Of a DNA stretch of 28,919 bases, positions 1 through 26,943 are shown piece after piece. Each line of letters begins with the position of its first letter. The first letter of the stretch is position 1. The notes under the pieces are model-generated. The model did not search any database, had not been told where the DNA came from, and worked only from the letters and a program-made list of their open reading frames with translations. Origin of the DNA: a virus; the IMG/VR virus record IMGVR_UViG_3300042402_004692, positions 1 through 28,919 of that record; one strand, 5' to 3'. The translations under genes and the position numbers were made by a program.

Positions 1-1908
1 ATAAATGACAAAAAACTTAGGAAACGTAGATGGATTTGCAACAGTTTGTATTCTTGTGTAGTCATTTCTGAACATAATGTATTTTTCATTAGGTCTGTCC
101 ACATATAATATAACGTCAACATTATCTTCTTTATATTTTGTGTGGTTATGCCAAGAAGGTACTTTGTAATAATAACCTCTTTCAGACCCAATTTTTTCGA
201 CCTTACTAACGTCAACTGGTTTTACTTGAACAAAGTATGAAGTGTTTTCAATTATCAAATCGAAGTCTTGACCAAGTTTTCTATCTCTTATATCACCAGC
301 ACATCTTTCTTTAATTTGCCAAGTCATACCTTCTTCTTGTGGGTTAAGTTTGAAAGATTGTATTAAAACTGATTTGGCATAGTTTTCATTTTCCCTACCA
401 TCTATTATAGTTTGGCTATTCAAATTTACTAACCGTTCAGTAAATCTCCCATCGTTACCAACAAGGTCATCAATATTATTCATAATCCAAATCCTAAAAT
501 TTTCCAAACCATCAGTTTCTTCGACCCATATTTTTTGGATTTCTTTGTGTACCGCACTGTTAGTGTCAAATCTATTTATAATAGACCAATTTCCTAAACC
601 ACCATAATTTTCTTCTGTAAATCTACCACCTATTATTCCATCTTCAGTTTGACATTCATCAGTTTGTATTTTACCTAAACAACCATTCGGATGAAACTCA
701 CCTTCACAAAAAGGATATGCTTTATTTATAATAAGCCTAAAGGATTTTGGTTTGATTGGAAAAACTTCTTTACTTTCATTTAAAACTTTTTTACGAACTG
801 TAGATTCTTTTAAAGTTTTTTTTTCAATTTTTTTCTTATACAGATCGTTAACAAAGTCCCAATTTACGTGGTTCCAAAATTTTTTGATATAATCATCTTT
901 TTTGTTTTGGTATTTCAAATAGTACGCGTGTTCCCAAAGATCTAATCCTAAAAGCGGATAACCACCATCTTTAACAATATTCATTAATGGGTTGTCTTGA
1001 TTTGGTGTGGACAATATTTTTAATTTTTTGTTCTTTCCTATCACTAACCAAACCCATCCAGATCCAAATCGTTTTTTTGCTTCTTCATTAAATTGGTCCT
1101 TCATTTTTTTTACATTACCAAAATCTTCGGTAATCTTATTGAAGATTTCATCTTTTGGTATTTGTTTTTTTGGTGACAACATTTTCCAAAATAAAGCGTG
1201 GTTAAAGGCTCCCCCTGCGTTATTTCTTACCGAGTCGTCAAATTTATTTATAGATATTATTATATCTTCTAAATCCATTTCCCCTTCTTTATTTTTTAAC
1301 GCATCATTAAGTTTTTTTACATATCCTTTATAATGTTTATTATAATGTATGTTCATAGTCTTAGGATCTACAAACTGTTTCATTGCGGAATATGAATACG
1401 GGAGTTTTTCTATACCAATTTTTTTCATTTCCAAAATGAAGTTTTCTTGGATGTTGAATTTATCTTGAATAAGAATCTTTTCTTCCAATAATTGAATTTT
1501 GTCTTGGATTGGTTTCAATCCTTCAAAAATAATATTTTCTAAATCAGGATTTTCTTTTTCAAAAGTTTTAATAAGTGAACCTGCCAAAGAATTGGCTTCG
1601 TCTTCGTTTTGACCACCAATATCAGGTCCTCTTTTTCTACCTAAAACATTTCTTTGATGACTATGAACCCATTCGTGTGCTAATGTTCTAAGAATATCTC
1701 TGTTCATTCTATTATTTACTAAAATTTTGATTCCCTTTTCTTTGTGTTGACTTCCTGTGGTCATTCTACCTTCACGTTGTCCCAACAGATGAATTACTAA
1801 GTCATCTTTTAGTGGATACTCTTTTTGTAAAAACTTACAAAAAGTTTTAAGTAGATCTTTTTCTTGCTTGCTTATGTCTGAATTTATATTTTTGAAAGTA
1901 ACGTTCAT
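1..1908 (-). CDS. HExxH peptidase / Mn-type superoxide dismutase / PD-(D/E)XK-like fusion protein (3' end beyond window)
   Basis: An open frame of 636 codons runs from ATG at 1908 to the left edge without a stop, so the C-terminus is missing. Residues 1-125 carry a metallopeptidase signature, HEWVH at 78-82, followed by EDEAN at 102-106, resembling the ImmA/IrrE-type HExxH...E pattern. Residues about 165-360 form a complete Fe/Mn superoxide dismutase. Ligands H188, H237, D323 and H327 are present, as are the gateway residues Y196 and H192. NNAGG before NH (229-233) and Q304 in NQD are the Mn-type choices rather than Fe-type. A Cys/His cluster follows (C401, H406, C410, C419). Residues about 500-636 look like a PD-(D/E)XK nuclease fold: D550 in DFDLII, then Q561-V-K563, then a later strand VDVILYVD. 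The SOD assignment is certain, the peptidase likely, the nuclease fold an inference. A TATTTAT box lies 5 bases before the ATG. Confidence 0.88.
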   Translation of the reverse strand, partial: MNVTFKNINSDISKQEKDLLKTFCKFLQKEYPLKDDLVIHLLGQREGRMTTGSQHKEKGIKILVNNRMNRDILRTLAHEWVHSHQRNVLGRKRGPDIGGQNEDEANSLAGSLIKTFEKENPDLENIIFEGLKPIQDKIQLLEEKILIQDKFNIQENFILEMKKIGIEKLPYSYSAMKQFVDPKTMNIHYNKHYKGYVKKLNDALKNKEGEMDLEDIIISINKFDDSVRNNAGGAFNHALFWKMLSPKKQIPKDEIFNKITEDFGNVKKMKDQFNEEAKKRFGSGWVWLVIGKNKKLKILSTPNQDNPLMNIVKDGGYPLLGLDLWEHAYYLKYQNKKDDYIKKFWNHVNWDFVNDLYKKKIEKKTLKESTVRKKVLNESKEVFPIKPKSFRLIINKAYPFCEGEFHPNGCLGKIQTDECQTEDGIIGGRFTEENYGGLGNWSIINRFDTNSAVHKEIQKIWVEETDGLENFRIWIMNNIDDLVGNDGRFTERLVNLNSQTIIDGRENENYAKSVLIQSFKLNPQEEGMTWQIKERCAGDIRDRKLGQDFDLIIENTSYFVQVKPVDVSKVEKIGSERGYYYKVPSWHNHTKYKEDNVDVILYVDRPNEKYIMFRNDYTRIQTVANPSTFPKFFVIY

Positions 1909-1979: not shown

Positions 1980-2351
1980 TTATTTTTTGTGTTCTTTAAT
2001 TTTTGCGTCTAATTTATCACAACGCGAATCTATATGACTTGACAGGTTTGAAATGTCAAATTTAGTTAGTCTTTCTAAATCTGTAAATCTTCTATCAACT
2101 TCGTCACTATAGTTGTTTAAATTAATTGATAGATCTTTATGTAGATCATCAATACGATTGTTTATCTCACTAAGTGAGTGTCTTCTTTCCCTTTCTATAT
2201 GATCAATATAATCATGAAATGATTTAACTTCAGTAAAAAAAGTGTTTTTATCAACCTTAACTTTTAACTTTAAAAACGTGACCACAACTGATGTTACAAC
2301 CGCAACCACACCCAAAGTAGATAAAACTGATATTAATATAACTGTTTCCAT
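1980..2351 (-). CDS. Small membrane-anchored coiled-coil protein, unknown function
   Basis: Encodes 123 residues. Residues about 4-28 are a single hydrophobic segment (ILISVLSTLGVVAVVTSVVV), so the protein is probably inner-membrane anchored with a short N-terminus outside. The remainder is hydrophilic and heptad-like from about 35 to 120 (repeated I/L spacing, many K/E/D/R), suggesting a long coiled coil in the cytoplasm or periplasm. There is no enzyme motif. It stands alone between two hairpin terminators and has its own upstream TATTTAT box 65 bases away. A spanin-like or host-membrane role is possible, but nothing in the sequence proves it. Confidence 0.7.
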   Translation of the reverse strand: METVILISVLSTLGVVAVVTSVVVTFLKLKVKVDKNTFFTEVKSFHDYIDHIERERRHSLSEINNRIDDLHKDLSINLNNYSDEVDRRFTDLERLTKFDISNLSSHIDSRCDKLDAKIKEHKK

Positions 2352-2377
2352 AACTTTATTTTTTTTAATGTTTATTA

Positions 2378-2403
2378 AACCTCATCTTAAAACAAGATAG
2401 GTT
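2378..2403. other. Hairpin in the leader of the membrane/coiled-coil gene
   Basis: AACCTCATCTT and AAGATAGGTT can pair over 10 bp with one bulged C and a loop of five bases. It falls in the 65-base untranslated leader between the TATTTAT box at 2417-2423 and the ATG at 2351 on the minus strand. There is no T-run behind it in that direction, so it is a leader structure rather than a terminator. Confidence 0.4.
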
Positions 2404-2416
2404 ATCAAAAACTTAA

Positions 2417-2423
2417 ATAAATA
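2417..2423 (-). promoter_or_regulatory. TATTTAT box upstream of the membrane/coiled-coil gene
   Basis: TATTTAT on the minus strand ends 65 bases before the ATG at 2351, and it overlaps the T-run of the preceding terminator. The spacing is longer than at any other box in the window, so this is one of the weaker instances. Confidence 0.35.
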
Positions 2424-2445
2424 AAAAACCCCACTATTGGTGGGG
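2423..2445 (-). terminator. Rho-independent terminator of the 100-residue gene
   Basis: On the minus strand CCCCAC, a five-base loop and GTGGGG form a 6-bp GC-rich hairpin followed by a run of T. It sits about 20 bases after the stop codon of the gene ending at 2465. Confidence 0.75.
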
Positions 2446-2464
2446 TCTTAAGAAATTTTTTAGA

Positions 2465-2767
2465 TTAATATCTGTATCTACTTCTAAACCTTCTTGATTC
2501 ATTCATATCCCCTATTTTTTCCATGGGATTTTCAAGTGGTTCATCTGATTGTTGAGATAACTTCTCAAACAATTTTACAAATTCAGGAGCTGGTAATGTT
2601 TTGAAAGCTTCAGTCGAACATTTTTGGAAATCTAATCTAGCAGGATCACATCCAGGTATGTTACTATGTGTCTTTAGAAGCTCCACATCCGCAGCAAGAT
2701 TTATTTCTTCTTCTTTTAAAATTCTTCGAAGAACGTTTTCTATTCTTTTTTCACTATATCTGTTCAT
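2465..2767 (-). CDS. Hypothetical protein, 100 residues
   Basis: I do not recognise this family. The N-terminus is a charged helix (MNRYSEKRIENVLRRILKEE). The middle has two cysteines (CDPARLDFQKC), and the C-terminal tail is rich in arginine and tyrosine (RRFRSRYRY), so nucleic acid contact is conceivable but unproven. The gene is bounded by a TATTTAT box 13 bases upstream of its ATG and a hairpin terminator downstream. That unit structure supports it as a real gene. Confidence 0.65.
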   Translation of the reverse strand: MNRYSEKRIENVLRRILKEEEINLAADVELLKTHSNIPGCDPARLDFQKCSTEAFKTLPAPEFVKLFEKLSQQSDEPLENPMEKIGDMNESRRFRSRYRY

Positions 2768-2780
2768 AATTTTTTTATTT

Positions 2781-2787
2781 ATAAATA
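2781..2787 (-). promoter_or_regulatory. TATTTAT box upstream of the 100-residue gene
   Basis: The minus strand reads TATTTATAAATA, a palindrome, ending close to an A-rich leader. The TATTTAT heptamer is 13 bases from the ATG at 2767, close to the 15-base class seen at 4622, 12353, 14388 and 25990. Confidence 0.55.
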
Positions 2788-2806
2788 TGAAAGAAAAATA
2801 AAAAAA

Positions 2807-4609
2807 TTATCTTTTATTGATGTGATTTAAAATTTCTTCAACAACGTCACCAATATTTTCTGAATCACCATCACCCATTACAGTACTTATTATTTTTTTC
2901 TTATGGTTTAATATATCATAAATTGCACCTTCGATTGTGTTTTCGAATATAGGATAGTAAACCAAAACGTTGTTTTTTTGACCATATCTATATGCTCTGT
3001 CTTCGGCTTGAGAATGTTCTGCAGGCACAAAAGATAAGTCATTCATAATTACAACTTCCGCAGATGTTAATGTCAAACCAACACCAGCGGCTTTTAGATT
3101 ACCTACAAATACTTTTATTTTTTCATCATTTTGAAAAGAATCAACCGCTTGTTGTCTTACTGAATTTGAACAACTTCCATCAAGGTAAACCGCTTGTTTT
3201 CCAAAATGTTGATATATGGATTGTAGGGTGTCAGTAAAGTTTGTAAAAATAATTACTTTTTTACCTTGGTCTAATATGTTTTCTGCAAATTCTATAGTTT
3301 GACTTATTTTTTCATTTGCTATGACTTTTCTAACTTTCATAAGTTTAGAAAATTGAACTGTAAGGGATGAAGATTCATTGGGGTTTTTATCGTACCAATC
3401 ATAATACTCACCCATAAGATTTTCATATTCTTTAGATCTCAATCGTAAATAAACGGGTGTTATAATTTTATCAGGTAAATCTAAAACATCTTCTTTTAGT
3501 CTTCTCAATATTTGTTTAGACGTTCTGTCTTTTAATTCTTCTAAATTAGACGCACCAGTAACGTTCCAAACTTTTCTTTTACCCGCGTTAAATTGATACC
3601 CTTGACAATATCTTATTGCGTAAGCCATCCAATTTTGGGCAACAGGACTTTCTATAATATTTAGAAGATTATAATAATTCATCGGTCTTGATGTCATTGG
3701 TGTACCCGTAAGTAACCAAACCCTTTTTATGTTTTTAACGAAACTATTTATAATTTTTGTTCTTTGGGCTTGTGCGTTTGACACCATATGTGCTTCATCT
3801 AAAATAACCAACTCGAACTGTGACTTTAAAAGTAATGAATTTTCTTTTTCTTTGGGGTCGTGAAAATTTTTTAATATATCATAATTTACAATAACAAAAT
3901 CAGATTCTGTTGAATATTTTTTTCCTTCTGATATAAAAACAGACCTTTCGGTGTAGTTTTGTATTTCCCTTTGCCAATTTATTTTCAAAGACGCAGGACA
4001 AATAATAAGAATTTTTTTGGCACCTGTTTCTAGTGCCGCAATTATAGTTGATGTTGTTTTTCCAAGACCCATATCATCCGCCAAAATAAACCTTCTTGAA
4101 CCTACTAATTTTTCTATTGCTTCTTTTTGATGTGAAAGTGGTGGTCTATGTGAATATTTATCATAACTAATTTCAACGATGTCAGTAGTGTGTGATTTTA
4201 TTAGTGCGGATTTAGGTACCCAAAATTCTGAAAGAACATCCTTTTCAAAAAATTTACCCCAAATATGGTAAGATTTTTCTTTTTCCACTAAAAGTTTTTC
4301 GACGTATATTTTATTAGGTACTTCTAAAAGATATCTTTCTTCCGAAAATTTTTTAGCAAAATACGTGTCCAAGTCCACCCACTTTCTTGCTACTTTTGGT
4401 TGTACATTATAATAATTGTTTATATAGTCGGCTTGAGTTCTCGTTGGGTAAAACTTTTTATTATTTTCTTTTTTTGTTTTAAGAAACAAAATATAATTGT
4501 TGGCACCACTATATGTATCTAATAGCTCTAATGCTTGGTGTTCTATTAATTGCTTACTGTTAGACAAAACTTTTTTTAAAAAAATAAACAAAAAAAAGAT
4601 ATTTATCAA
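2807..4609 (-). CDS. SNF2-family DNA helicase/translocase
   Basis: A superfamily 2 ATPase of up to 600 residues. Motif I is DDMGLGKT (178-185), the Walker B box is DEAH (271-274) and motif III is TGTP (301-304). The C-terminal RecA lobe holds the SNF2 hallmark QAEDRAYRYGQ (about 535-545) after VGLTLTSA. SNF2 proteins translocate on double-stranded DNA; a short protein of this layout resembles SMARCAL1/HARP-like annealing helicases. A role in phage recombination, fork remodelling or genome clearing is inferred, possibly replacing T4 UvsW, which is a different SF2 branch. The start is uncertain. The ATG at 4609 would encode an unusual Phe-rich leader and overlaps the promoter of the divergent gene. 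A TTG at 4567 (residue 15), 16 bases behind a TGTTTAT box, is an alternative. Confidence 0.9.
   Translation of the reverse strand: MINIFFLFIFLKKVLSNSKQLIEHQALELLDTYSGANNYILFLKTKKENNKKFYPTRTQADYINNYYNVQPKVARKWVDLDTYFAKKFSEERYLLEVPNKIYVEKLLVEKEKSYHIWGKFFEKDVLSEFWVPKSALIKSHTTDIVEISYDKYSHRPPLSHQKEAIEKLVGSRRFILADDMGLGKTTSTIIAALETGAKKILIICPASLKINWQREIQNYTERSVFISEGKKYSTESDFVIVNYDILKNFHDPKEKENSLLLKSQFELVILDEAHMVSNAQAQRTKIINSFVKNIKRVWLLTGTPMTSRPMNYYNLLNIIESPVAQNWMAYAIRYCQGYQFNAGKRKVWNVTGASNLEELKDRTSKQILRRLKEDVLDLPDKIITPVYLRLRSKEYENLMGEYYDWYDKNPNESSSLTVQFSKLMKVRKVIANEKISQTIEFAENILDQGKKVIIFTNFTDTLQSIYQHFGKQAVYLDGSCSNSVRQQAVDSFQNDEKIKVFVGNLKAAGVGLTLTSAEVVIMNDLSFVPAEHSQAEDRAYRYGQKNNVLVYYPIFENTIEGAIYDILNHKKKIISTVMGDGDSENIGDVVEEILNHINKR
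4600..4606 (+). promoter_or_regulatory. TATTTAT box, start of the rightward tail gene run
   Basis: TATTTAT ends 15 bases before the ATG at 4622 and is followed by an A-rich leader (CAATAAAACATCAAA). It sits in the narrow divergent gap between the helicase gene and the neck gene. Confidence 0.55.
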
Positions 4610-4621
4610 TAAAACATCAAA

Positions 4622-5134
4622 ATGGATAGTAAAGTTCCAATAACTAGATTAGGTAAATTTTTTGGTGAAAAAGATTTTTCACTTGAAGTATCTATGGGTC
4701 AAGAGTGGTTAAATGGTGATATGAATTATACTTGTGTACTTTATAGAGTTGATAGAACAAAAACAAAAACTGACGATGTTTATGGTGAAACTTTATCCGA
4801 CAGTATAAATTTTCATCCTCCTGTTGAATTTAATGCTTATGTTGCTATAGCGGCACCCGAAAATAAAATGATCGGATCTACTAAAATTGATCAAGTAGAA
4901 CCAGGTAACATTACAATGTCTGTTTACTTGAAAACTTTGGAAGATTTAAACATAGAAATAAGTTTTGGTGATTATGTGGGTTATTACGATAGCGAAAACT
5001 TTGTAAGATATTATACAGTTGTCAATGATGGTCGTGTGATTTCTGATATAAAACATACATATAAAGGGTATAAGCCATTTTATAGAACAATAATTGCATC
5101 ACCTGTTACATCAAATGAGTTCAGAGGATTATAA
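4622..5134 (+). CDS. Probable neck / head-tail connector protein
   Basis: Encodes 170 residues with a beta-rich pattern and no catalytic motif. A glycine-aromatic stretch near the middle (FGDYVGYYDSENFVRYY) and a basic, tyrosine-rich end (YKGYKPFYR) are the most distinctive parts. It lies 9 bases upstream of the tail terminator gene, the place taken by neck proteins gp13/gp14 in T4. I did not identify a family from the sequence, so the neck role rests on position. It is the first gene of the rightward structural run. Confidence 0.5.
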   Translation: MDSKVPITRLGKFFGEKDFSLEVSMGQEWLNGDMNYTCVLYRVDRTKTKTDDVYGETLSDSINFHPPVEFNAYVAIAAPENKMIGSTKIDQVEPGNITMSVYLKTLEDLNIEISFGDYVGYYDSENFVRYYTVVNDGRVISDIKHTYKGYKPFYRTIIASPVTSNEFRGL

Positions 5135-6460: not shown

Positions 6461-9400
6461 ATGGCAACTAACAGTAAAATTTTCGTTTCACCTGGTGTCT
6501 ATACTTCTGAAGTAGATTTAAGTTTTGTGGCACAAAGCGTTGGTGTTACAACTTTAGGTATTGTCGGAGAAACACTTAAAGGTCCGGCCTTCGAACCTAT
6601 TTTTATTAAAAACTATGATGAGTTCCAATCTTACTTTGGTCCTACTTCACCTGAAAAATTTGTAAATACTCAAATTCCTAAATATGAAGCGGCATACATC
6701 GCCAAATCATATTTACAACAATCTAATCAATTATTTGTAACTAGAGTTTTAGGTTTATCGGGATATGATGCGGGTCCTTCTTGGTCAATAATTACAAGCG
6801 CAAACTTAGATCCTTCCACTTTGGCACCTTATTGTTTGAGTTCAGTAACAATAGATTGTCAGGATGTTTGTGTGTCAGCTAAGACATTACCTTTTCAAGT
6901 GGCATTTACAGGTTGTACTAACTCACCAAGTTCTGTTTCTTTCGGAGCCTTTCCTGCAGAAATAGAAGCGTTGTTAACATCACAATACGAACAGTTCAAC
7001 GGTAATACTTCGACTTTATTAGAAGATTTACAGTTTTTTACATATCAAAGAATTTTAAATCCTCTTTCTCAAAATACATCTATTGCTTACTTCGGTACTA
7101 TTGATGGTGATGATTATGACATGTTGTCAAGTGGATATACAGCTTCTACAAATGTGTTTAATGTACCATCACCTTCTAGTAACTTAACAAACTTCTTATC
7201 ACCATTTAATGATACTTGGTACTATGCTTTGTTTGAAAACACAGGAAATAGTAATTATTCGGGTTATTCATTTTGGTCTGTTGTTTCAGGGTTAACATCA
7301 ATTAATCCAATAACTACAACTACAATTCCTCCAACAACTACGTCAACGACTACAAATCCTTGTATAACACCAACACCTGTGGTTCCTACTACAACAACTA
7401 CTACTACTGTTGTTGATTGTTACTCAGGAACAGTTATAGGTATGATATATTATTATACCGGTAATTCATACACTCTTTATGATGACATGGTTATTGCAAC
7501 ACTAAGATCAAGAGGTATTGCGGATTACAGCGATGACGTGAACCCAAGATATGAAATAACTGGTTTGACTGATGTTACAATGGATTGTTCAGGTCAATAT
7601 TCGGGCGTATTAAAAAATCCATTTGCTAAATTTGCAATAAATGCGACTAACTACTTAGGTAACAACTTTACTTTTGTTACGTCGTTCGCAAATTCGGATT
7701 CAGAATATCTTACAAAAGTATTCGGAACAAGTAACTTTGGTAAACCAAGAAATGTGGTACCACTTTTTGTGGAAGAAAGATTCCAATCACTTTTAAGATG
7801 GGCGTATAACAAAGGTTACATACGAGGTTTAAAATGTGGTTTAATATCATTACCTGAAGCACAAAGCGAAGATCCAACATCAATTGCTTGGTACTTAGAA
7901 AAGTATCAATCACCTGAAAGTCCATGGGTTGTTTCTGAAGTTAGAGGTTCCAAAGTTTATAACTTATTTAAATTTTACACAATTTCTGACGGGAACAGTG
8001 CCAACACAGAAGTTAAAATATCTATATCTGATATATCTTTCGCAAATGAAACATTTACAGTTTTAATTCGTGATTACTACGATACAGATTCAAATCCTGT
8101 TGTGTTAGAAAAATTCACAAACTGTACTATGAATCCAAGCGAAAATAGTTTTATAGCCAAAAAAATTGGTACTTTGGACGGTGAGTTTGAATTGAAATCA
8201 AGATATGTAATGGTTGAAATGAATGAAGACGCACCAATAGATTCATTACCTTGTGGATTTGAAGGATATAATTTCAGAGAATATGCAGGAGCAAAATCAC
8301 CATTCCCTATAATTAAAACTAAATATGATTACCCAGGTGAGTTAGTTTTCAATCCACCTTTTGGTACACCATCAGGTACAGACGATGCTGGATTATCATC
8401 AGGTGATAATATAAGAAAAACTTTCTTAGGGTTTTCTACAAGTGCCGATTACGGTTATGACCCAAGTTTCTTCGAATATAAAGGTAAAAGAAATCCTTCA
8501 AACATATGTTTTGCAACTGAATCATCTCCTTGGTTATATAGAACTAAAGGGTTCCACATGGACAAAAACGCAAGTGGTATTACAATTGCTAACGTTTTTG
8601 CAACAAGTGGCACTCCTCGTTTCTACGTAGGTGATGCGTCTTTCAGTTCTGAACCTACTGTTGAAACAAACCCTTACTACCGTTTATTTGCTCGTAAATT
8701 TACTTTACTTGTACAAGGTGGATTCGATGGTTGGGATATCTACAGAGAAAGAAGAACAAACGCAGATAAATACCAATTAGGTAGAACTGGTTACTTAAAT
8801 GGGGCTTGTGCAACAACAAGATACCCTTCAGCAGTTGGTTGGGGAGCGTTTAAACAAATTACTGTTGGTGACGGTACAAGAGAATACGCAAACACTGACT
8901 ATTACGCTTACTTACTTGGTATCAGAACTTTTGCTAATCCTGAAGCGGTTAATATAAATGTATTTGTTACACCAGGAATTGACTATGTTAACAACAGTGA
9001 CTTAGTAGAAGATACAATAGATATGATAGAAAACGAAAGAGCGGATTCTTTGTATATAACAACTACACCTGACTACAATTTGTTATTACCTACCACAACT
9101 GGTGTAGATGGTTTGATTTATCCACAAGAAGCGGTTGATAATCTTGATGGTACAGGAATCGATTCTAACTATACCGCCACTTACTATCCGTGGGTGTTAA
9201 CAAGAGATAGTGTAAATAACACACAAATTTATCTACCACCAACGGCTGAAGTAACCAGAAATTTAGCATTAACAGACAACATTGCGTTTCCTTGGTTTGC
9301 TGCGGCGGGTTATACTCGTGGTATTGTAAACGCTATCAAAGCTCGTAAGAAGTTGACTCAAGAAGACAGAGATGTTCTTTATCTTGGTAGAATCAACCCT

Positions 9401-9784
9401 ATTGCTACATTCTCAGATGTGGGTACAGTAATATGGGGTAATAAAACCCTACAAGTAAGACAGTCAGCACTTGATAGAATAAACGTTCGAAGATTATTGT
9501 TACAAGCACGTAAGTTAATTTCGGCAGTTTCAGTAAGATTATTGTTTGATCAGAACGATGAAAAAGTAAGACAAGATTTCCTAAATGCGGTAAATCCAAT
9601 ATTAGATGGTATCAGAAGGGATAGGGGTCTTTATGACTTTAGAGTTACCGTATCAAATGACACGGCTGATCTAGATAGAAATCAGATGACTGGTAAGATA
9701 TATATCAAACCAACAAGATCACTAGAATTTATAGATATTACATTCTACATTACACCAACAGGTGCTTCTTTCGAAGATGTATGA
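6461..9784 (+). CDS. Tail sheath protein, T4 gp18-like, enlarged
   Basis: Encodes 1107 residues, against 659 for T4 gp18. The start is typical of sheath proteins (VSPGVYTSEVDLSF at about 9-22), and the conserved C-terminal domain is clear: RRLLLQARKLISAVS, VRQDFLNAVNPILDGI and DRGLYDFRV, ending in a strand with ITFYITPTGASFEDV. Sheath subunits assemble around the tube and contract at infection. The extra length is mainly in the N-terminal half: a Cys-containing region (about 124-150) and a Thr/Pro-rich linker at about 285-320, bounded by cysteines and followed by another domain. These insertions probably project outward from the tail. The gene has its own promoter box and a strong terminator, so it forms a single-gene unit. 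Confidence 0.95.
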   Translation: MATNSKIFVSPGVYTSEVDLSFVAQSVGVTTLGIVGETLKGPAFEPIFIKNYDEFQSYFGPTSPEKFVNTQIPKYEAAYIAKSYLQQSNQLFVTRVLGLSGYDAGPSWSIITSANLDPSTLAPYCLSSVTIDCQDVCVSAKTLPFQVAFTGCTNSPSSVSFGAFPAEIEALLTSQYEQFNGNTSTLLEDLQFFTYQRILNPLSQNTSIAYFGTIDGDDYDMLSSGYTASTNVFNVPSPSSNLTNFLSPFNDTWYYALFENTGNSNYSGYSFWSVVSGLTSINPITTTTIPPTTTSTTTNPCITPTPVVPTTTTTTTVVDCYSGTVIGMIYYYTGNSYTLYDDMVIATLRSRGIADYSDDVNPRYEITGLTDVTMDCSGQYSGVLKNPFAKFAINATNYLGNNFTFVTSFANSDSEYLTKVFGTSNFGKPRNVVPLFVEERFQSLLRWAYNKGYIRGLKCGLISLPEAQSEDPTSIAWYLEKYQSPESPWVVSEVRGSKVYNLFKFYTISDGNSANTEVKISISDISFANETFTVLIRDYYDTDSNPVVLEKFTNCTMNPSENSFIAKKIGTLDGEFELKSRYVMVEMNEDAPIDSLPCGFEGYNFREYAGAKSPFPIIKTKYDYPGELVFNPPFGTPSGTDDAGLSSGDNIRKTFLGFSTSADYGYDPSFFEYKGKRNPSNICFATESSPWLYRTKGFHMDKNASGITIANVFATSGTPRFYVGDASFSSEPTVETNPYYRLFARKFTLLVQGGFDGWDIYRERRTNADKYQLGRTGYLNGACATTRYPSAVGWGAFKQITVGDGTREYANTDYYAYLLGIRTFANPEAVNINVFVTPGIDYVNNSDLVEDTIDMIENERADSLYITTTPDYNLLLPTTTGVDGLIYPQEAVDNLDGTGIDSNYTATYYPWVLTRDSVNNTQIYLPPTAEVTRNLALTDNIAFPWFAAAGYTRGIVNAIKARKKLTQEDRDVLYLGRINPIATFSDVGTVIWGNKTLQVRQSALDRINVRRLLLQARKLISAVSVRLLFDQNDEKVRQDFLNAVNPILDGIRRDRGLYDFRVTVSNDTADLDRNQMTGKIYIKPTRSLEFIDITFYITPTGASFEDV
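7315..7418 (+). repeat. Low-complexity ACA/ACT-rich tract coding for the sheath Thr/Pro linker
   Basis: The codons here are mostly ACN and CCN, giving about 33 residues dominated by threonine and proline, with runs of up to seven Thr. It separates two beta-rich parts of the sheath protein and looks like a flexible spacer carrying a surface domain. Confidence 0.7.
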
Positions 9785-9856: not shown

Positions 9857-10756
9857 ATGAATTACTACAAATTTTTAGTTAAAAAAATTATTAAGGAAGT
9901 TGTTGAAGAAAACCCATCTTATGCAATGAAGTACTACGCTTTTGATTGGGATGATAATTTAATGAAAATGCCAACTTTAATTTATTTGAAAGATGAAGAT
10001 GGTGACGTAATAGGAATGAACACCGAAGATTTTGCTGAGTATCGTACTTTAGTTGGTAGTCAACCTTTTGATTACGAAGGTCACATGATAGTTGGTTTTG
10101 ATGAAAGTCCATTTAGGGATTTCAATGTAACTGGTGATCGTAAGTTTTTAGAAGATATAAAATATGCCCCTATAGCATCCGAAAAAGTGTGGAATGATTT
10201 TGTTGAAGCGATAAATAGTGGATCTGTTTTTGCAATTATAACAGCAAGGGGTCATTCACCAGCAGCGTTAAAAAAGGCTGTCAAATATATAATAGAAAAC
10301 AATATGCATGGTGTAGAAAAAGGACAACTTGTTAAACACCTTAAAGAATATCGTCGTATTGCCGGCCTAAAACAAATAGAAAATGAAAATTGGTTAAATA
10401 AAGATTATTTAGATAGATGTCAATTTTCACCCGTTTCACACGGTAAGGGGTCTGCTGCGAACCCTGAAGAAGAAAAATATAACGAATTATTAAGATTTTA
10501 TAATAGAATGACTAGATCATCCAAAAAATTTCAAAAATCACAATTTATAAATCACGTAAATACTGGAAGTGAGTCAATTGGTGGTGGATTGTTTAAATTT
10601 AAAAAACCTTCATTTGGTTTTTCAGATGATGATGAAAGAAATGTTAAATCAATTAAGAAAAGATTTTCAGATATAGGAAAAGATTTAAATATTTATTATA
10701 CTAAAGGAGGAGAAAAACAACTATATGAAAACCGGTCTAGTAGAAGAATATTTTAA
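9857..10756 (+). CDS. HAD-superfamily phosphatase-like protein
   Basis: Encodes 299 residues with the HAD motifs in order. Motif I is FDWDDN with D30 (nucleophile) and D32 (acid/base). Motif II is ITARGH with T129. Motif IV is FSDDDERN with D257-D259. The basic residue of motif III is not certain. HAD enzymes remove phosphate from small molecules, proteins or nucleic acid ends using Mg2+; the substrate here cannot be told. A long insert lies between motifs II and IV (about 150-245), rich in Lys and Glu. It is placed between sheath and tube with its own promoter box, so co-expression with tail proteins is likely. The first 20 residues form a basic amphipathic helix before the catalytic fold. 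Confidence 0.75.
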   Translation: MNYYKFLVKKIIKEVVEENPSYAMKYYAFDWDDNLMKMPTLIYLKDEDGDVIGMNTEDFAEYRTLVGSQPFDYEGHMIVGFDESPFRDFNVTGDRKFLEDIKYAPIASEKVWNDFVEAINSGSVFAIITARGHSPAALKKAVKYIIENNMHGVEKGQLVKHLKEYRRIAGLKQIENENWLNKDYLDRCQFSPVSHGKGSAANPEEEKYNELLRFYNRMTRSSKKFQKSQFINHVNTGSESIGGGLFKFKKPSFGFSDDDERNVKSIKKRFSDIGKDLNIYYTKGGEKQLYENRSSRRIF

Positions 10757-22500: not shown

Positions 22501-25500
22501 TTTGTACCCATACAAGGAGGCGGCATACCTATTTTTAAACTCGTTACCACTAACAACACTTAGGGAAAAATACAAAACTCTTGATGGACCCGCAGTAAAA
22601 GAATTGGACTACATGTTTGCTGCGTTTAAAAAGTTTGGGTCGGTTCACAGGTTACCATACGCTTGGGTTTTAAAATATGGGTCTATTTGGCACAGATATA
22701 AAAATTGGATTGAAACAGGATTTGACTTTATGACAACTCCTTGGGACAATTTTAACGCAAACGAAAACTTTGACCCAATAACACAAAATCCCGCAAAAAT
22801 ATATAACTTATCTGGTTTTACATCAATATCAAATCAACCTGTTGAAATATCATTACAAAGAGATATAACTTCAGGGTTTTTGACGGCAACCAAAATGGAT
22901 TTAGGGTTTTATCCAAAATTGGCAAATGACTTCAATTTATTTTACAATGGATTAGAACTATATGACACATATACAGATTTAGAAATACAAGAAACTATTG
23001 ATAGTAAAAAATTATATCTGAACTTGTCGGACAATTCCTTACTTAACTATGATTTTGGATTTGATCCGGCAGATCCAAATAGAGCTTTGAATATATCAAC
23101 CTTGTCAACTTTAGTAAAGGACGATTTAAGTGGAGACTATTTTATTACACCTTCTTTTGGTTTGAGTTTTAATCAGACAAAATACGAATGTTTTTCAGGG
23201 CCCGCAGGACAAGAAAAAATTAAGACGGAAGTTAAAAACAATCCCGCGGTGTTCAATGGATCGGTGAGAATGTTTTGGTCAATGCCTAATTATGGATATT
23301 TTGACAACAATAGATTAGGTATCAATTCACCTGATGAATATCTTAAAAGTATGATTCTTGACAAACCAAACCAAGAAAATTTTTCATTAAACGGTGACAT
23401 AACAAAGTACACAAAAATCGATGAAGTATTTTCTATTTTTGAAAAAAGAGTTTTGGACCTTTTTGAAGAACACTTTTTAAATTTTTCAAAATGTAAGTAC
23501 GACTACGTAAATATAATTAAAAGACCTGAAGGTAGTCCAGCATCAGAAGATTCTATTTTGATAAAATATAGAAATTTTCAGTTATTGGCAACGGAAATGT
23601 TTAGAATTAATAAAACAAACTTTTTGACAGAAAATGTAAGTGATGTTGCAATTGAACAGGTTAAGGCAAGCCAGTTAGTTTCAATACATGATTTAATAGA
23701 AAAATTTATTAACTATGATGTTTTATTTGATAATGGTAACCCATCATTTTATAACAAAAGAGTTTTTTACAGTTTAACCAACCTTCCATTAGTTGATAAA
23801 ATTGTTCCCAAATCATACTTTGTTGATACACCATATTCACTACCATCATTAAATGGTACCACAACTTTAGCACAATCACAAAATGCTTATCCTGATGAAT
23901 GGAGAGCCTTAGAAACATATGTAGGGTTTTCAACCATACCTAATTTAGTTTATACCGATCAAGGTTCATTTATAACAGATTTTTTTATTGATCTAGATAT
24001 TGCTTTTTCAGTAGACAATATTCGTGATTTTGCACCAATTATAAAAATATTTGCAACACAAAAGTTAACTGACAATACTTTTAATGAATTCAAACTAAGA
24101 AACTACTTAATAAATTACTTTGAAAAATGTAATTTGTTTAAGAATAATATTATTAATACTTTGATGCCTGAAGTACTAAAAAGTTTACCAAACCAAATTA
24201 TTACACCACAACCTAACAAGGCAAACTACACAGGTAACATAGGTAGAATTGAAACATGGGAAAAAATAAAGGCACTTAATGACAAGTGGATTGCTGGAAA
24301 TGATTATAAAGAAAATTCATTATTTGAAGATTTTTTATTTTTAGATAGAGCGTCAAGAAATATTGGTGGTGAAGTTTATTGTGACGTTGTTCTTTGGAAA
24401 GATAAATTGGAAGAATCAATATTAAAAGTACCTGATCGTCCATTATGGTTGATATTAAGAGAATTAATTGAAGCGTCTGGATTTACTGTTTTGGATTACG
24501 CAGGATACGTAAACTATTATGATGTAAATGATGTTACGGTAAGACCTAATCCATCTAACCAAGGCTCAACTTCCATTGCTAATGACATATTTGGAACTTT
24601 TTTGAATGTTGATTTTAGAAATTCGAAAAGTAAAATAGTTTGTACATTCGCTAACGAAGCTAGTAAAAACTTAGATATCCCTAATAGTGATTTTAGAAAC
24701 GACGTTTTCCAACTTAACAGACAATCTGAAAATCCACTTATTGAAAATCAAAGTAAAAAACAAGATTGGGGTCAGTCGAACAAGTTAGTTGCATTCAACT
24801 TGGACATCGGAAGACAAAACCAAGGGGTTTTTACAAGTTTTGATGTAAACATGAATTCGGGTCAAAAAACTGCCGAAGAAATACGGATGTTAGAATATAC
24901 CGCAAATCAAGCAGGAGGTATAAATGTAACACCTCAAAGTCAATCTATGTACAATTTTTACAAATATAGAGTTTATACTTGTGACGTTTCTATGTTTGGA
25001 AACGCACTTATTCAACCAAAAATGTACTTCAATTTGAGAAATGTACCAATGTTTTCGGGACCATATCAAATATTAAATGTTTCTCACACAATTGGAGTTG
25101 GAAGTTTCACAACAACATTTTCAGGAACAAGACAACCCGTATATGAAATTTCGGCTCAAGATTCTTATTTACAAACTATATATAAAAACTTTGTTACTCC
25201 ACTATTAAACAAGGCGAAAACTAGTACAAGTTCAAACATAACAACAAATATTATTGGACAACAGACATCTAAAATGGCTACTGTAACAGGACCAAATACA
25301 CCATCATCATCTCAGTGTGGTCAAAGTTTGGTGTCACCGTTTGATACTTTTGTTTATAGTGCATCAACACAAACAAGTATTGCAACAAGTACAGTTGTAA
25401 GTAATATTAAAAGTGTTGTTAATTTAATACCTAATAATAATTTACTTACTACAAATCAAAAAATAGCTTTAAGATACATGACATTCATTATTGGATATAT

Positions 25501-25948
25501 TTCTAACTATGATGGTACCACATTTAAGATAGATTCTAATAACTTTGGTAATGTCCCACTTAACCAATCACTATTAGGTGACAACGATACTTATGTAAAA
25601 AGTAAAACAAACAACTATTTCTGTCAGACTAATTCAAGTAATCAAGTTATTCCTGTTGGATATTTTAATAACGTACAAGACCCAATTTACGTTATTGCTA
25701 ACAAATTTATCAATTTATCTAAATCAGGTGGGGACCCATTCTTGTCTAATCTACAAACAACACAAATATTGGCAAGTAATATACCACAAACAACACTTCA
25801 AGAGTTTTCCAAGTTGTACATCACACAGTGGCCAAATATTGTTGACCAAAATGTTTACAATCAACTACAACCATCTGATAAAGCAACATTGGAATCGAAA
25901 ATTAAAGCAGCAATATTATTGGCGAACGCAAATGGTTTGAGTTCTTAA
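19541..25948 (+). CDS. Giant baseplate hub-like protein, 2135 residues
   Basis: The largest gene in the window. Near the N-terminus, GIKSIRVSTEMSLKTMVDISLVDIRGRALFE, ending in PFTLTIKGWYG (about 144-215), resembles the beta-barrel start of hub proteins. Near the C-terminus, CDVSMFGNALIQPKMYF then MFSGPYQILNVSHTIGVGSF (about 1810-1860) is typical of hub (gp27/VgrG-like) domains. About 1600 residues lie between these two halves, as if a large block were inserted into a hub fold. A last domain (about 1955-2135) reads NNFGNV, YFNNVQDPIYVIANKFINL, weakly like a glucosaminidase/lysozyme fold, but no catalytic Glu is evident. The start overlaps the gp53-like gene. A central baseplate role is well supported; the finer domain calls are inference. 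Confidence 0.68.
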   Translation: MAIDNENILVDFDYQNIIIIDPNKIIDNDGNVKERAVKHENLVMYANLECKVLPRTKLIIGATPNNTDLQTLSIASINFLNPGQKKFLDNSYTDQHTGKGTLKGEGVNQPSQTAVVNPKNSNEFYLNQTFLSEGKNQVTDTGLMGIKSIRVSTEMSLKTMVDISLVDIRGRALFELADASPYGVFFQFPYPPFTLTIKGWYGKAVRYKLQLLDFKSKFDAETGNFNIDLKFQPYQFTVINEIKLSDTLALPHMYEANTTLVSTPNTVTQNNVSTNAKLTRGYQKIREVYKEYKKKKLIDENLPEYTVYEFKEKLKTFITDILNNYQNQESLSALTNCEVYLNQLSEFKNTIYYNKDSWYNTNLYVQAPIVLSSYTSNNTVTYVKNFRYKKEIEDDTGLKNAAFAKLNSIISENLDKLSKNPTFGTSQTCNYTIKGVPTNSSIPLNISIKDFYYDKTDNTILTSDPIDYKISYQYAYNTSPSGSTDPNFIKFKTDLQTSLPSQSYFVFDGITEGDKSFIEKINDLEKELKTKKTQIENDLTNALKDTLELNLGFKPTIKNMAGILMASAEAFLRILDEVHKNAWNKRDDPTRRRAILDSVSNSASVDRPKIARANSPVFPWPQFIVEDNSNPSKTTYQVKYPGDYPAETGSNDYTIWPEVEFVEEYLYGFTQRNTNTNFITTQNQRINLPYTSLNSVEYPLTFELFSSTEDVKFIYEIYERVLTYAFYSKLNRQGSDENSVYNVIMDMETQNIKNALSTDNPFLIQLLKSYNFNALNFELILKHISNDGNGESWQNFRRGIYNTPYLKSVTETPFYLSSFEPPTQPVVGDSSKITSFLATTKNNDFDNTDIYPYVNVDWINKNLANSLSVQNDAKNAFNTNQTIFYNTDIVQTANFKQNSDSDFVRPFTYFYKTAPSDPSNTVTSRDTLYALYEDRSKNYDKQYFTEGNVNYIQYENELLYNQTTSLLNTPYFANAISVGVQNFRNKNLYPYKEAAYLFLNSLPLTTLREKYKTLDGPAVKELDYMFAAFKKFGSVHRLPYAWVLKYGSIWHRYKNWIETGFDFMTTPWDNFNANENFDPITQNPAKIYNLSGFTSISNQPVEISLQRDITSGFLTATKMDLGFYPKLANDFNLFYNGLELYDTYTDLEIQETIDSKKLYLNLSDNSLLNYDFGFDPADPNRALNISTLSTLVKDDLSGDYFITPSFGLSFNQTKYECFSGPAGQEKIKTEVKNNPAVFNGSVRMFWSMPNYGYFDNNRLGINSPDEYLKSMILDKPNQENFSLNGDITKYTKIDEVFSIFEKRVLDLFEEHFLNFSKCKYDYVNIIKRPEGSPASEDSILIKYRNFQLLATEMFRINKTNFLTENVSDVAIEQVKASQLVSIHDLIEKFINYDVLFDNGNPSFYNKRVFYSLTNLPLVDKIVPKSYFVDTPYSLPSLNGTTTLAQSQNAYPDEWRALETYVGFSTIPNLVYTDQGSFITDFFIDLDIAFSVDNIRDFAPIIKIFATQKLTDNTFNEFKLRNYLINYFEKCNLFKNNIINTLMPEVLKSLPNQIITPQPNKANYTGNIGRIETWEKIKALNDKWIAGNDYKENSLFEDFLFLDRASRNIGGEVYCDVVLWKDKLEESILKVPDRPLWLILRELIEASGFTVLDYAGYVNYYDVNDVTVRPNPSNQGSTSIANDIFGTFLNVDFRNSKSKIVCTFANEASKNLDIPNSDFRNDVFQLNRQSENPLIENQSKKQDWGQSNKLVAFNLDIGRQNQGVFTSFDVNMNSGQKTAEEIRMLEYTANQAGGINVTPQSQSMYNFYKYRVYTCDVSMFGNALIQPKMYFNLRNVPMFSGPYQILNVSHTIGVGSFTTTFSGTRQPVYEISAQDSYLQTIYKNFVTPLLNKAKTSTSSNITTNIIGQQTSKMATVTGPNTPSSSQCGQSLVSPFDTFVYSASTQTSIATSTVVSNIKSVVNLIPNNNLLTTNQKIALRYMTFIIGYISNYDGTTFKIDSNNFGNVPLNQSLLGDNDTYVKSKTNNYFCQTNSSNQVIPVGYFNNVQDPIYVIANKFINLSKSGGDPFLSNLQTTQILASNIPQTTLQEFSKLYITQWPNIVDQNVYNQLQPSDKATLESKIKAAILLANANGLSS

Positions 25949-25967
25949 ACATTTTACTAAATTGATA

Positions 25968-25974
25968 TATTTAT
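25968..25974 (+). promoter_or_regulatory. TATTTAT box of the 75-residue gene
   Basis: GATATATTTATAAATAAAC holds TATTTAT ending 15 bases before the ATG at 25990. The longer word TATTTATAAATA is palindromic, as at 2781. Confidence 0.55.
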
Positions 25975-25989
25975 AAATAAACAATTACT

Positions 25990-26217
25990 ATGAGTAACAC
26001 AAAATTAATTTTAGACAACTATTTAGGTAAAAATACTAGAATTTCTGAAAAAGACATGGGAGATGGAACTAAACAAGTTTGTGACTTGGATACAAACGAA
26101 TGTTACGTTTTAAGAATGAAAGATGGTCTTATAGAAAGAGTAGATAATACTATGAATAAATTTAAAAAAATCCAGGTTGAAACAAAATCAGGAATAAAAA
26201 CATTATTAAACGGTTAA
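25990..26217 (+). CDS. Hypothetical small protein, 75 residues
   Basis: I do not recognise a family. The protein is charged, with a central CDLDTNECYVLRMKDGLIERV stretch: two cysteines five residues apart, then a beta hairpin. It ends in a lysine-rich tail. It is followed after three bases by the next gene, so the two form an operon under the box at 25968. Its place after the hub gene suggests a virion or assembly factor, but the sequence does not show what it does. Confidence 0.65.
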   Translation: MSNTKLILDNYLGKNTRISEKDMGDGTKQVCDLDTNECYVLRMKDGLIERVDNTMNKFKKIQVETKSGIKTLLNG

Positions 26218-26220
26218 GAA

Positions 26221-26943
26221 ATGGGATTAGACAAAAAAATCTTGGAAGAAATTAGAAGGGTAAATTATATTACAAATTATATAACCGAACAAGGGGCTCC
26301 TGAAGATCCTTTGGCTGATTTAGCAGGAGCGCCAGAAGATCCAGCAGCAGGTGGAGTACCAACAGATCCGGCAGCAGGTGGAGCACCAACAGATCCGGCA
26401 GCAGGCGGAGCACCAACAGATCCGGCAGCAGGTGGAGCACCAACAGATCCGGCAGCAGGTGGAGCACCAGCGGCAGGTGGAGCACCAACTCCTGTTGATA
26501 CGGCAACAGATCCTGATGTTGAAGAAGTTGGTAAAGAAGGTGAAGAAGAAGACGAAGAATTGGATATCACCGATTTAGTAACGGCACAAAAAAATATTGA
26601 AGACAAACAAGAAGAATATTTCCAAAACTTGTTCAAACAATTAGAGGCTATGGATGCTAAACTAAAGGAAATGGATGGACTAACAAGTAAAATATCTTCA
26701 ATAGAAGATAAAATTGAAAGGTACAAACCAAAAACACCACAAGAAAAATTAGAACTTAGAAGTTTGGATTCAGGACCCTTCAAACAAAAACTTTCTGATT
26801 TCTTTGTAGACAAACAACAAGAAATGGAAAAATCAGGAAAAAATGAATATGTTTTGACAACTGATGAGGTAAAACAATTTTCACCTGGTCAAATCGAAGA
26901 TTCATTTAATGAATACGGACAAGACGACGACGATATGATGTAA
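26221..26943 (+). CDS. Acidic repeat-containing protein with coiled coil, probable virion or scaffold protein
   Basis: Encodes 240 residues. The N-terminal 20 residues are a basic helix. About 37-90 consist of nine-residue repeats of the type APTDPAAGG. A strongly acidic block (EEVGKEGEEEDEELDITDL) follows at about 100-118. A coiled coil (about 118-170) leads to a compact C-terminal domain containing KPKTPQEKLELRSLDSGPF and ending in an aspartate-rich tail. There is no catalytic motif. The flexible Pro/Ala/Gly linker joining a helix to a globular domain fits a structural or scaffold role. It shares a transcription unit with the preceding 75-residue gene and ends in a TTCG-loop hairpin. Confidence 0.7.
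   Translation: MGLDKKILEEIRRVNYITNYITEQGAPEDPLADLAGAPEDPAAGGVPTDPAAGGAPTDPAAGGAPTDPAAGGAPTDPAAGGAPAAGGAPTPVDTATDPDVEEVGKEGEEEDEELDITDLVTAQKNIEDKQEEYFQNLFKQLEAMDAKLKEMDGLTSKISSIEDKIERYKPKTPQEKLELRSLDSGPFKQKLSDFFVDKQQEMEKSGKNEYVLTTDEVKQFSPGQIEDSFNEYGQDDDDMM
26329..26490 (+). repeat. 27-bp tandem repeats coding APTDPAAGG
   Basis: About five copies of a 27-bp unit plus a shortened one, in frame, differing by a few bases (for example GGTGGA/GGCGGA and GTACCA/GCACCA). The tract is much richer in G and C than its surroundings. Near-identity of the central copies points to recent slippage, so copy number probably varies between relatives. Confidence 0.9.

Follow-up and report, generated by a model that had tools for sequence, protein, structure and literature searches.

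A fusion of a peptidase-like domain and superoxide dismutase in large phages, with an exchangeable C-terminus and T4-type head-protease motifs at its module boundaries

Among described systems, the closest to the locus reported here are the head cargo proteins of phage T4, IPI-III and Alt, a set of diverse and exchangeable payloads that carry the cleavage motif [I/L]xE (PMC9026906, PMC5694885). In these accounts each is a single protein with a short N-terminal propeptide of 10-20 residues. IPII and IPIII both begin with MKTYQEFIAE, and the first 10 residues of IPIII are reported to be enough for head targeting (PMC9026906). Cuts on the far side of the cargo also occur, since the T4 prohead protease gp21 cleaves Alt at both ITE-6 and LTE-619 (PMC5694885). 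In the giant phage SPN3US, the prohead protease removes a long N-terminal part of head proteins (propeptides of more than 100 residues), which that source does not describe as an enzyme (PMC5694885); the cleavage motif is AxE, with another residue ahead of the Glu. The residues ahead of Glu differ among giant phages, so the motif needs checking within the clade considered below.

For the enzymes themselves, two comparisons are available. The chlorovirus PBCV-1 packages a superoxide dismutase (SOD) in its virion (PMC7019647), but this is a Cu/Zn enzyme of a virus with an algal host and, as far as described there, not a polyprotein, and packaging of the phage SOD is only proposed here. Protein QPX48222.1 of Synechococcus phage S-SRM01 contains a related HExxH domain with HEFIH and ENEAN motifs (32.8% identity, E 7e-8); it differs in being a protein of 132 aa on its own, encoded among replication genes and without SOD. 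Neither a phage Mn/Fe-SOD fusion nor a virion-packaged phage SOD was among the matches listed from a subset of the open-access literature, and the same subset gave no match combining a polyprotein, a prohead protease and ejection proteins.

We analysed a virus record fragment of 28,919 bases (the window), whose first gene lies on the minus strand, as do all features given below by residue number. From an ATG at 1908 the frame runs without interruption for 636 codons to base 1 and is open at the edge (1..1908), as the original prediction had stated. The last 74 of the 710 codons fall past the window edge; we recovered the missing 3' end from a related virus record of 290,887 bases (G001), in which the complete gene (24766-26898) encodes 710 aa. 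Along this chain, a HExxH peptidase-like domain (1-125) is followed by a linker, an Fe/Mn SOD (163-362), a short linker and a C-terminal module that we call C1 (383-710).

The HExxH metallopeptidase-like domain (1534..1908) bears the zinc-binding motif HEWVH at residues 78-82 (1663..1677), which is HEW[VI]H in 55/55 proteins of an alignment built from those of 60 distinct ORFs with at least 362 aa, and EDEAN at residues 102-106 (1591..1605), the presumed third zinc ligand region. All 103 distinct domains retain HExxH and E.EA, with 19 residues between in 99 of them; the other four keep HExxH and EDEAN with 20 residues between. An AlphaFold model of residues 1-160, computed from 39 sequences (mean pLDDT 88.2), aligns with AQ_1354 (1oz9), which we take to be a YbeY relative, at Z 10.2 (rmsd 2.6, 108 residues aligned), and with zinc aminopeptidases including ERAP2 (Z 10.1), Wss1 (9.7) and YbeY (7y7o, 9.3), enzymes that we group as zincins. 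These matches support a zincin-type peptidase fold for the predicted structure, in line with the peptidase-like module seen originally in the HEWVH and EDEAN motifs. Other searches were weaker: Foldseek against the PDB gave 5.3e-3 at best (Wss1), Pfam DUF6055 scored 7e-4, below the cut-off, Peptidase_M78/IrrE-like (PF06114) had no match in the window protein and remained below the cut-off in the S-SRM01 relative (E 0.092), and a PDB sequence search with the HExxH profile returned nothing relevant. In BFVD, 24 phage or viral proteins match the fold at E <=0.001, some of them named IrrE-like or SprT-like. Three of the matches (A0A6J5R4H4, A0A6J5M1C6, A0A6J5MCV5) place it within long proteins of phages that are annotated as AAA, amidoligase and cytidyltransferase, the AAA protein having 1143 aa and the amidoligase 812 aa, so the modelled fold may recur as a building block of phage proteins with several domains.

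The SOD domain (823..1422) matches Sod_Fe_C (3.4e-39) and Sod_Fe_N (1.1e-20), the two Pfam domains scoring 133.4 and 74.3 bits against cut-offs of 20.9 and 27, and PDB superoxide dismutases match residues 168-361 with a best E-value of 1.8e-62. The metal ligands H188, H237, D323 and H327, as well as Q304 and Y196, are kept in 95/95 distinct near-full-length SOD domains; we assign their roles from E. coli MnSOD. The phage domain thus shares with bacterial Fe/Mn SODs the four metal ligands, the equivalent of Tyr34 and the Gln of the Mn type, to which we presume the corresponding roles, and differs from them in its fusion to a preceding peptidase-like domain and in the [I/L]xE sites on either side. 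The enzyme is ligand-complete and looks intact, as had been proposed. Its cellular relatives, judged from the best 80 of 252, show 42-53% identity and are mostly Bacteroidota by record title.

C1, of which the window holds residues 383-636 (1..762), matches phrog_5018, a family of unknown function, in 13/15 members (best E 0.0021). Three cysteines between the SOD and the nuclease-like core, C401, C410 and C419 (652..708), are invariant wherever the residue is present (43, 43 and 44 of 45 C1 sequences); of the Cys/His cluster in the original prediction, these Cys are conserved, and no conserved His was seen in it. PD-(D/E)XK nucleases have the signature E...D...(E/Q)xK. In C1 the putative catalytic acid E508 (385..387) and the putative catalytic Asp D548 (265..267) are each present in 45/45 sequences, as are the Gln and the Lys of Q561-V-K563 (220..228); the middle residue varies, and two loci (L348 and L374) have QIK. 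The original prediction had Q561-V-K563 right and placed the Asp at D550, whereas the invariant Asp is D548, with E508 as its upstream acidic partner. A second exchangeable module, C2, has E78, D98, S108 and K110 (module numbering) in 33/33 sequences by column; a text pattern that was too strict matches 43/45 C1 and 9/33 C2 sequences. From the nuclease signature and the predicted order of helices and strands, we infer that C1 is a PD-(D/E)XK-like nuclease. The restriction-endonuclease fold first suggested for it thus has the E-D-QxK set in its favour and no confirmation by structure search: with a C1 model of pLDDT 66.2 as query, Foldseek and VIA-align listed no restriction-endonuclease match. 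PDB sequence searches with the C1 and C2 profiles gave nothing relevant, and in a 'phages' collection C1 had no match at E up to 1 and C2 a single one (24.7%), in an uncultured phage. Shared ancestry of C1 and C2 is not supported, because hhalign gives a probability of 0.5%.

The fusion is widespread. HExxH followed by SOD in one frame occurs in 106 complete distinct phage ORFs, summed over six architectures: 32 have no recognised module after the SOD, 34 continue with C1, 30 with C2, six with a small module, three with a small module and C1, and one with two small modules and C1. Since the loci were fetched using the modules themselves, these counts are no census; they derive from a viral-contig scan with the C-terminus (20 loci), one with the N-terminus (best 80 of 133) and three further scans added before the architecture count, one of which gave the best 80 of at least 599. 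The C-terminus is exchangeable, being nothing, C1 as in the window, the second PD-(D/E)XK-like module C2 or a small repeated module. The three-domain layout first noticed is therefore real and recurrent, and only one of several. HExxH and SOD share a frame in nearly all loci of the first two scans, the exceptions being L091, where they are split over two frames, and L092, where the contig ends; identity across the first set is 41-100% per domain. All three kinds of C-terminal module also exist as stand-alone genes, with four distinct genes for C1, one for C2 and 13 for the small modules (an 80-aa C2 piece in L312 is a fragment and was left out). In L349 the SOD has no HExxH domain in the same frame. 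Its SOD gene (2302-3915) carries a different C-terminal tail and is followed directly by C1 as a separate leader-bearing gene (3902-4993), a natural split of the polyprotein.

The surroundings of the fusion gene are conserved as well. A SNF2-type helicase gene (2807..4609, minus strand) is the upstream neighbour in 44/44 testable loci, and a head-tail adaptor gene (phrog_211, 1.8e-9) comes after the fusion gene in 91/92. The phage tail region originally proposed as the setting is accurate only loosely: tail genes come later in the window, and the fusion gene has the adaptor and the helicase as direct neighbours. Between the fusion gene and the helicase gene, a 100-aa protein (2465..2767, minus strand) has the leader-like N-terminus MNRYSEKRIENVLRRILKE (leader HMM 6.0 bits, i-E 0.32). 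Elsewhere in the window, a tail sheath of 1107 aa (6461-9784, plus strand) contains a Thr-rich insertion; most of its 25 listed matches span only the last ~400 residues, and that of Microcystis phage Mel-JY01 also covers the N-terminus. Between tail sheath and tail tube lies a 299-aa protein (9857-10756, plus strand) with leader-like MNYYKFLVKKIIKE and FDWDDN, presumably a HAD-like motif; Pfam (E up to 1) and PHROG (0.01) yield no match for it. Another protein (26221-26943, plus strand) carries leader-like NYITNYITE and then Pro/Ala/Gly repeats. Few Shine-Dalgarno sites and an A-rich upstream region are typical of Bacteroidota; in G001, only 5/240 genes have a Shine-Dalgarno-like site, and the upstream region is A-rich. 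The large aquatic phages termed 'moraphages' (200-307 kb) are mostly predicted on Bacteroidota, and the word 'superoxide' is absent from the searched main text of the paper describing them (PMC12619734).

Of special interest are the module boundaries, which carry the T4 head-protease motif [I/L]xE, a new observation made at the sequence level. Two sites lie in the HExxH-SOD linker: LEE at residues 141-143 (1480..1488), which is [IL]xE in 52/55 aligned proteins and in 103/115 of a wider set at this spacing, and ILE↓M at residues 158-160 (1429..1437; the arrow marks the putative cut), adjoining the SOD, where [IL]xE is found in 55/55 and 115/115. The wider set comprises SOD ORFs that fit a pattern for the N-terminal part of the SOD, contig-truncated ones included. 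Over the 367 columns of the 55-protein alignment, [IL]xE reaches 90% or more only in columns 143 and 160, where the middle residue takes six or seven forms. Conservation is lowest in this linker (0.58 vs 0.72 and 0.86). Two more sites, LKE↓S at residues 366-368 (805..813) and LNE↓S at 376-378 (775..783), stand between the SOD and C1, the latter shortly before C1. Following the SOD, at least one site is present in 86/86 and at least two in 68/86 of those members of the wider set with a tail of at least 60 aa; 200 rounds of shuffling these linkers gave means of 41 and 8 and maxima of 51 and 16, and the counts are not independent because the sequences are related. The motif itself is weak, with a background of 0.0153 per position in the G001 proteome.

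The same motif marks the stand-alone modules. Their leaders include MKYIFTESQLDILKNKILINE↓D (L349) and MKEIILEILKEYIKENINE↓D (L374) before C1, and MENIYYTIAEQKMEKLSHVLNE↓I (L318) before C2; a small module has MKIIITE↓S when stand-alone and TINE↓S when fused, and a variant of it MKIIISESQYKLIKE↓NVSLKEKLL and KKPLNE↓SISLKEKLL, respectively. In all of these, [I/L]xE occupies nearly the same place in the two forms, to within a few residues, an agreement, from alignments by eye and carrying no formal probability, that seems unlikely by chance given 0.0153 sites per position. Two of the four stand-alone C1 genes (L380 and L318) have a leader but are not comparable with fused C1 in site position, because the matched module starts ~60-80 residues further on. 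Across all 332 ORFs of G001, many further proteins begin with leaders; in 279 proteins, 208 [IL]xE fall in residues 1-35 and 154 in residues 36-70, a modest enrichment. Pfam, applied to 29 of the 30 listed leader-bearing proteins with the capsid protein serving as control, finds few named domains. Leaders may not mean head cargo in every case, because some sit on a Peptidase_M23 protein (195278-196015, 1.8e-21) and on one with Peptidase_M23 (5.5e-9) and a phage tail lysozyme domain (3e-9; 237642-239183). At G001 172306-176249 (L112), MNLQENIxRIKxMM starts five of six adjacent genes and is followed by different proteins, the sixth having only MNLQENI; another G001 protein (262699-263652) has leader-like VRITESHLVLLIKNILKE at its extreme C-terminus and a shorter one at its N-terminus.

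G001 also encodes a protease of the T4 gp21 type with 238 aa (Peptidase_S77, 1.4e-23 in Pfam; phrog_207 head maturation protease, 2.1e-43). Its capsid protein, of the Gp23 type (2.2e-73), contains ASFLINE↓A, which resembles GSFLTE↓A of T4 near the T4 cut position; in an alignment to T4 gp23, its INE stands beside the LTE column, not on it. The chain resembles the substrates of a T4-type prohead protease in having [I/L]xE at its boundaries and, in a relative, a protease of the same family, and resembles T4 cargo in its diverse, exchangeable payloads. It departs from IPI-III and Alt in joining several enzymes in one chain, in its internal sites and in having no N-terminal propeptide: the chain begins with the peptidase fold and carries no capsid-targeting peptide, and [IL]xE is absent from the first 42 residues of the window protein.

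We propose, as the reading we consider on balance probable, that the chain is a head-packaged payload precursor of a large T4-like phage, which the prohead protease would cut into peptidase, SOD and nuclease before injection. The chain would enter the core of the assembling head, and during head maturation the gp21-like protease would cut it at residues 143, 160, 368 and 378, freeing three enzymes to be injected along with the DNA. The SOD might then quench superoxide in the virion or in the cell just infected, and the other two enzymes might attack host or rival targets. The original suggestion of a virion- or cell-delivered protein gains indirect support here from the boundary motifs and the relative's protease, the role itself being conjectural. 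Extended to large aquatic phages at large, the proposal is more tentative: their injected payloads could be modular polyproteins, with leader-cleavage cassettes shuttling cargo between stand-alone and fused forms and the head protease cutting inside the capsid, so that a manganese/iron SOD, a metallopeptidase and an interchangeable nuclease are delivered together at the start of infection.

That the frame is an assembly chimera of separate genes, a doubt raised with the original prediction and fed by the window ending within the gene, can be practically dismissed, because the fusion recurs in 106 complete distinct ORFs beside SNF2 helicase and head-tail adaptor, with the order kept and the neighbours fixed, and because members of the first set are 41-100% identical per domain. 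A rather unlikely but more serious competitor is an uncut intracellular multi-enzyme that handles oxidative stress and host proteins or DNA, its linkers being plain helices. Three findings favour it and count against our proposal: residues 131-159 are modelled by AlphaFold as a single helix, none of the linkers scores significantly with the leader profile HMM (0.8 bits at best), and there is no N-terminal targeting leader. In its favour, too, the SOD is the last recognised module in 32 distinct complete ORFs. Plain helices do not account well, however, for I or L at P3 and Glu at P1 in 115/115 pre-SOD sites whose adjacent residues vary, nor for sites recurring after the SOD ahead of unrelated modules and near the starts of stand-alone ones.

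If the chain is cut, the HExxH domain rather than the prohead protease could be what cuts the linkers, a self-processing polyprotein. The HExxH motif is kept throughout, and similar predicted folds occur in the long AAA and amidoligase proteins mentioned above; [I/L]xE is nevertheless also present in leaders of stand-alone modules without HExxH and, close to the position cut in T4, in the capsid protein, which makes this improbable. Less probable still is that Met161 is an internal start giving free SOD. It is present in 114/115 sequences, and T4 gene 21 is annotated with such a start, but L349 has Ala at 161 and yet keeps IEE. The 114 SOD Met codons have a median start-context score of -1.8, whereas 240 gene starts reach 5.2 and 1508 internal ATGs -4.4. 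Scores this high occur in 30% of the internal ATGs, and scores this low in 6% of the gene starts. Ahead of the SOD Met, T is found at positions -12 and -11 in 58 and 59 of 59 sequences; at gene starts, 57% and 63% have A there. With a context nearer to that of internal ATGs, and with IEE beside Ala161 in L349, an internal start for the SOD is disfavoured as the main explanation.

Relative to T4-type head cargo, what is new under the head-packaged precursor reading is the polyprotein layout and the SOD payload. If this reading is true, these phages would package several enzymes by way of a single precursor, which is synthesised and targeted as a unit and from which they are released, and would allow the delivery of an SOD by virions to be tested in bacteria. 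The [I/L]xE leader or linker would then also serve as a sequence rule for finding packaged proteins among the unknown genes of large phages.
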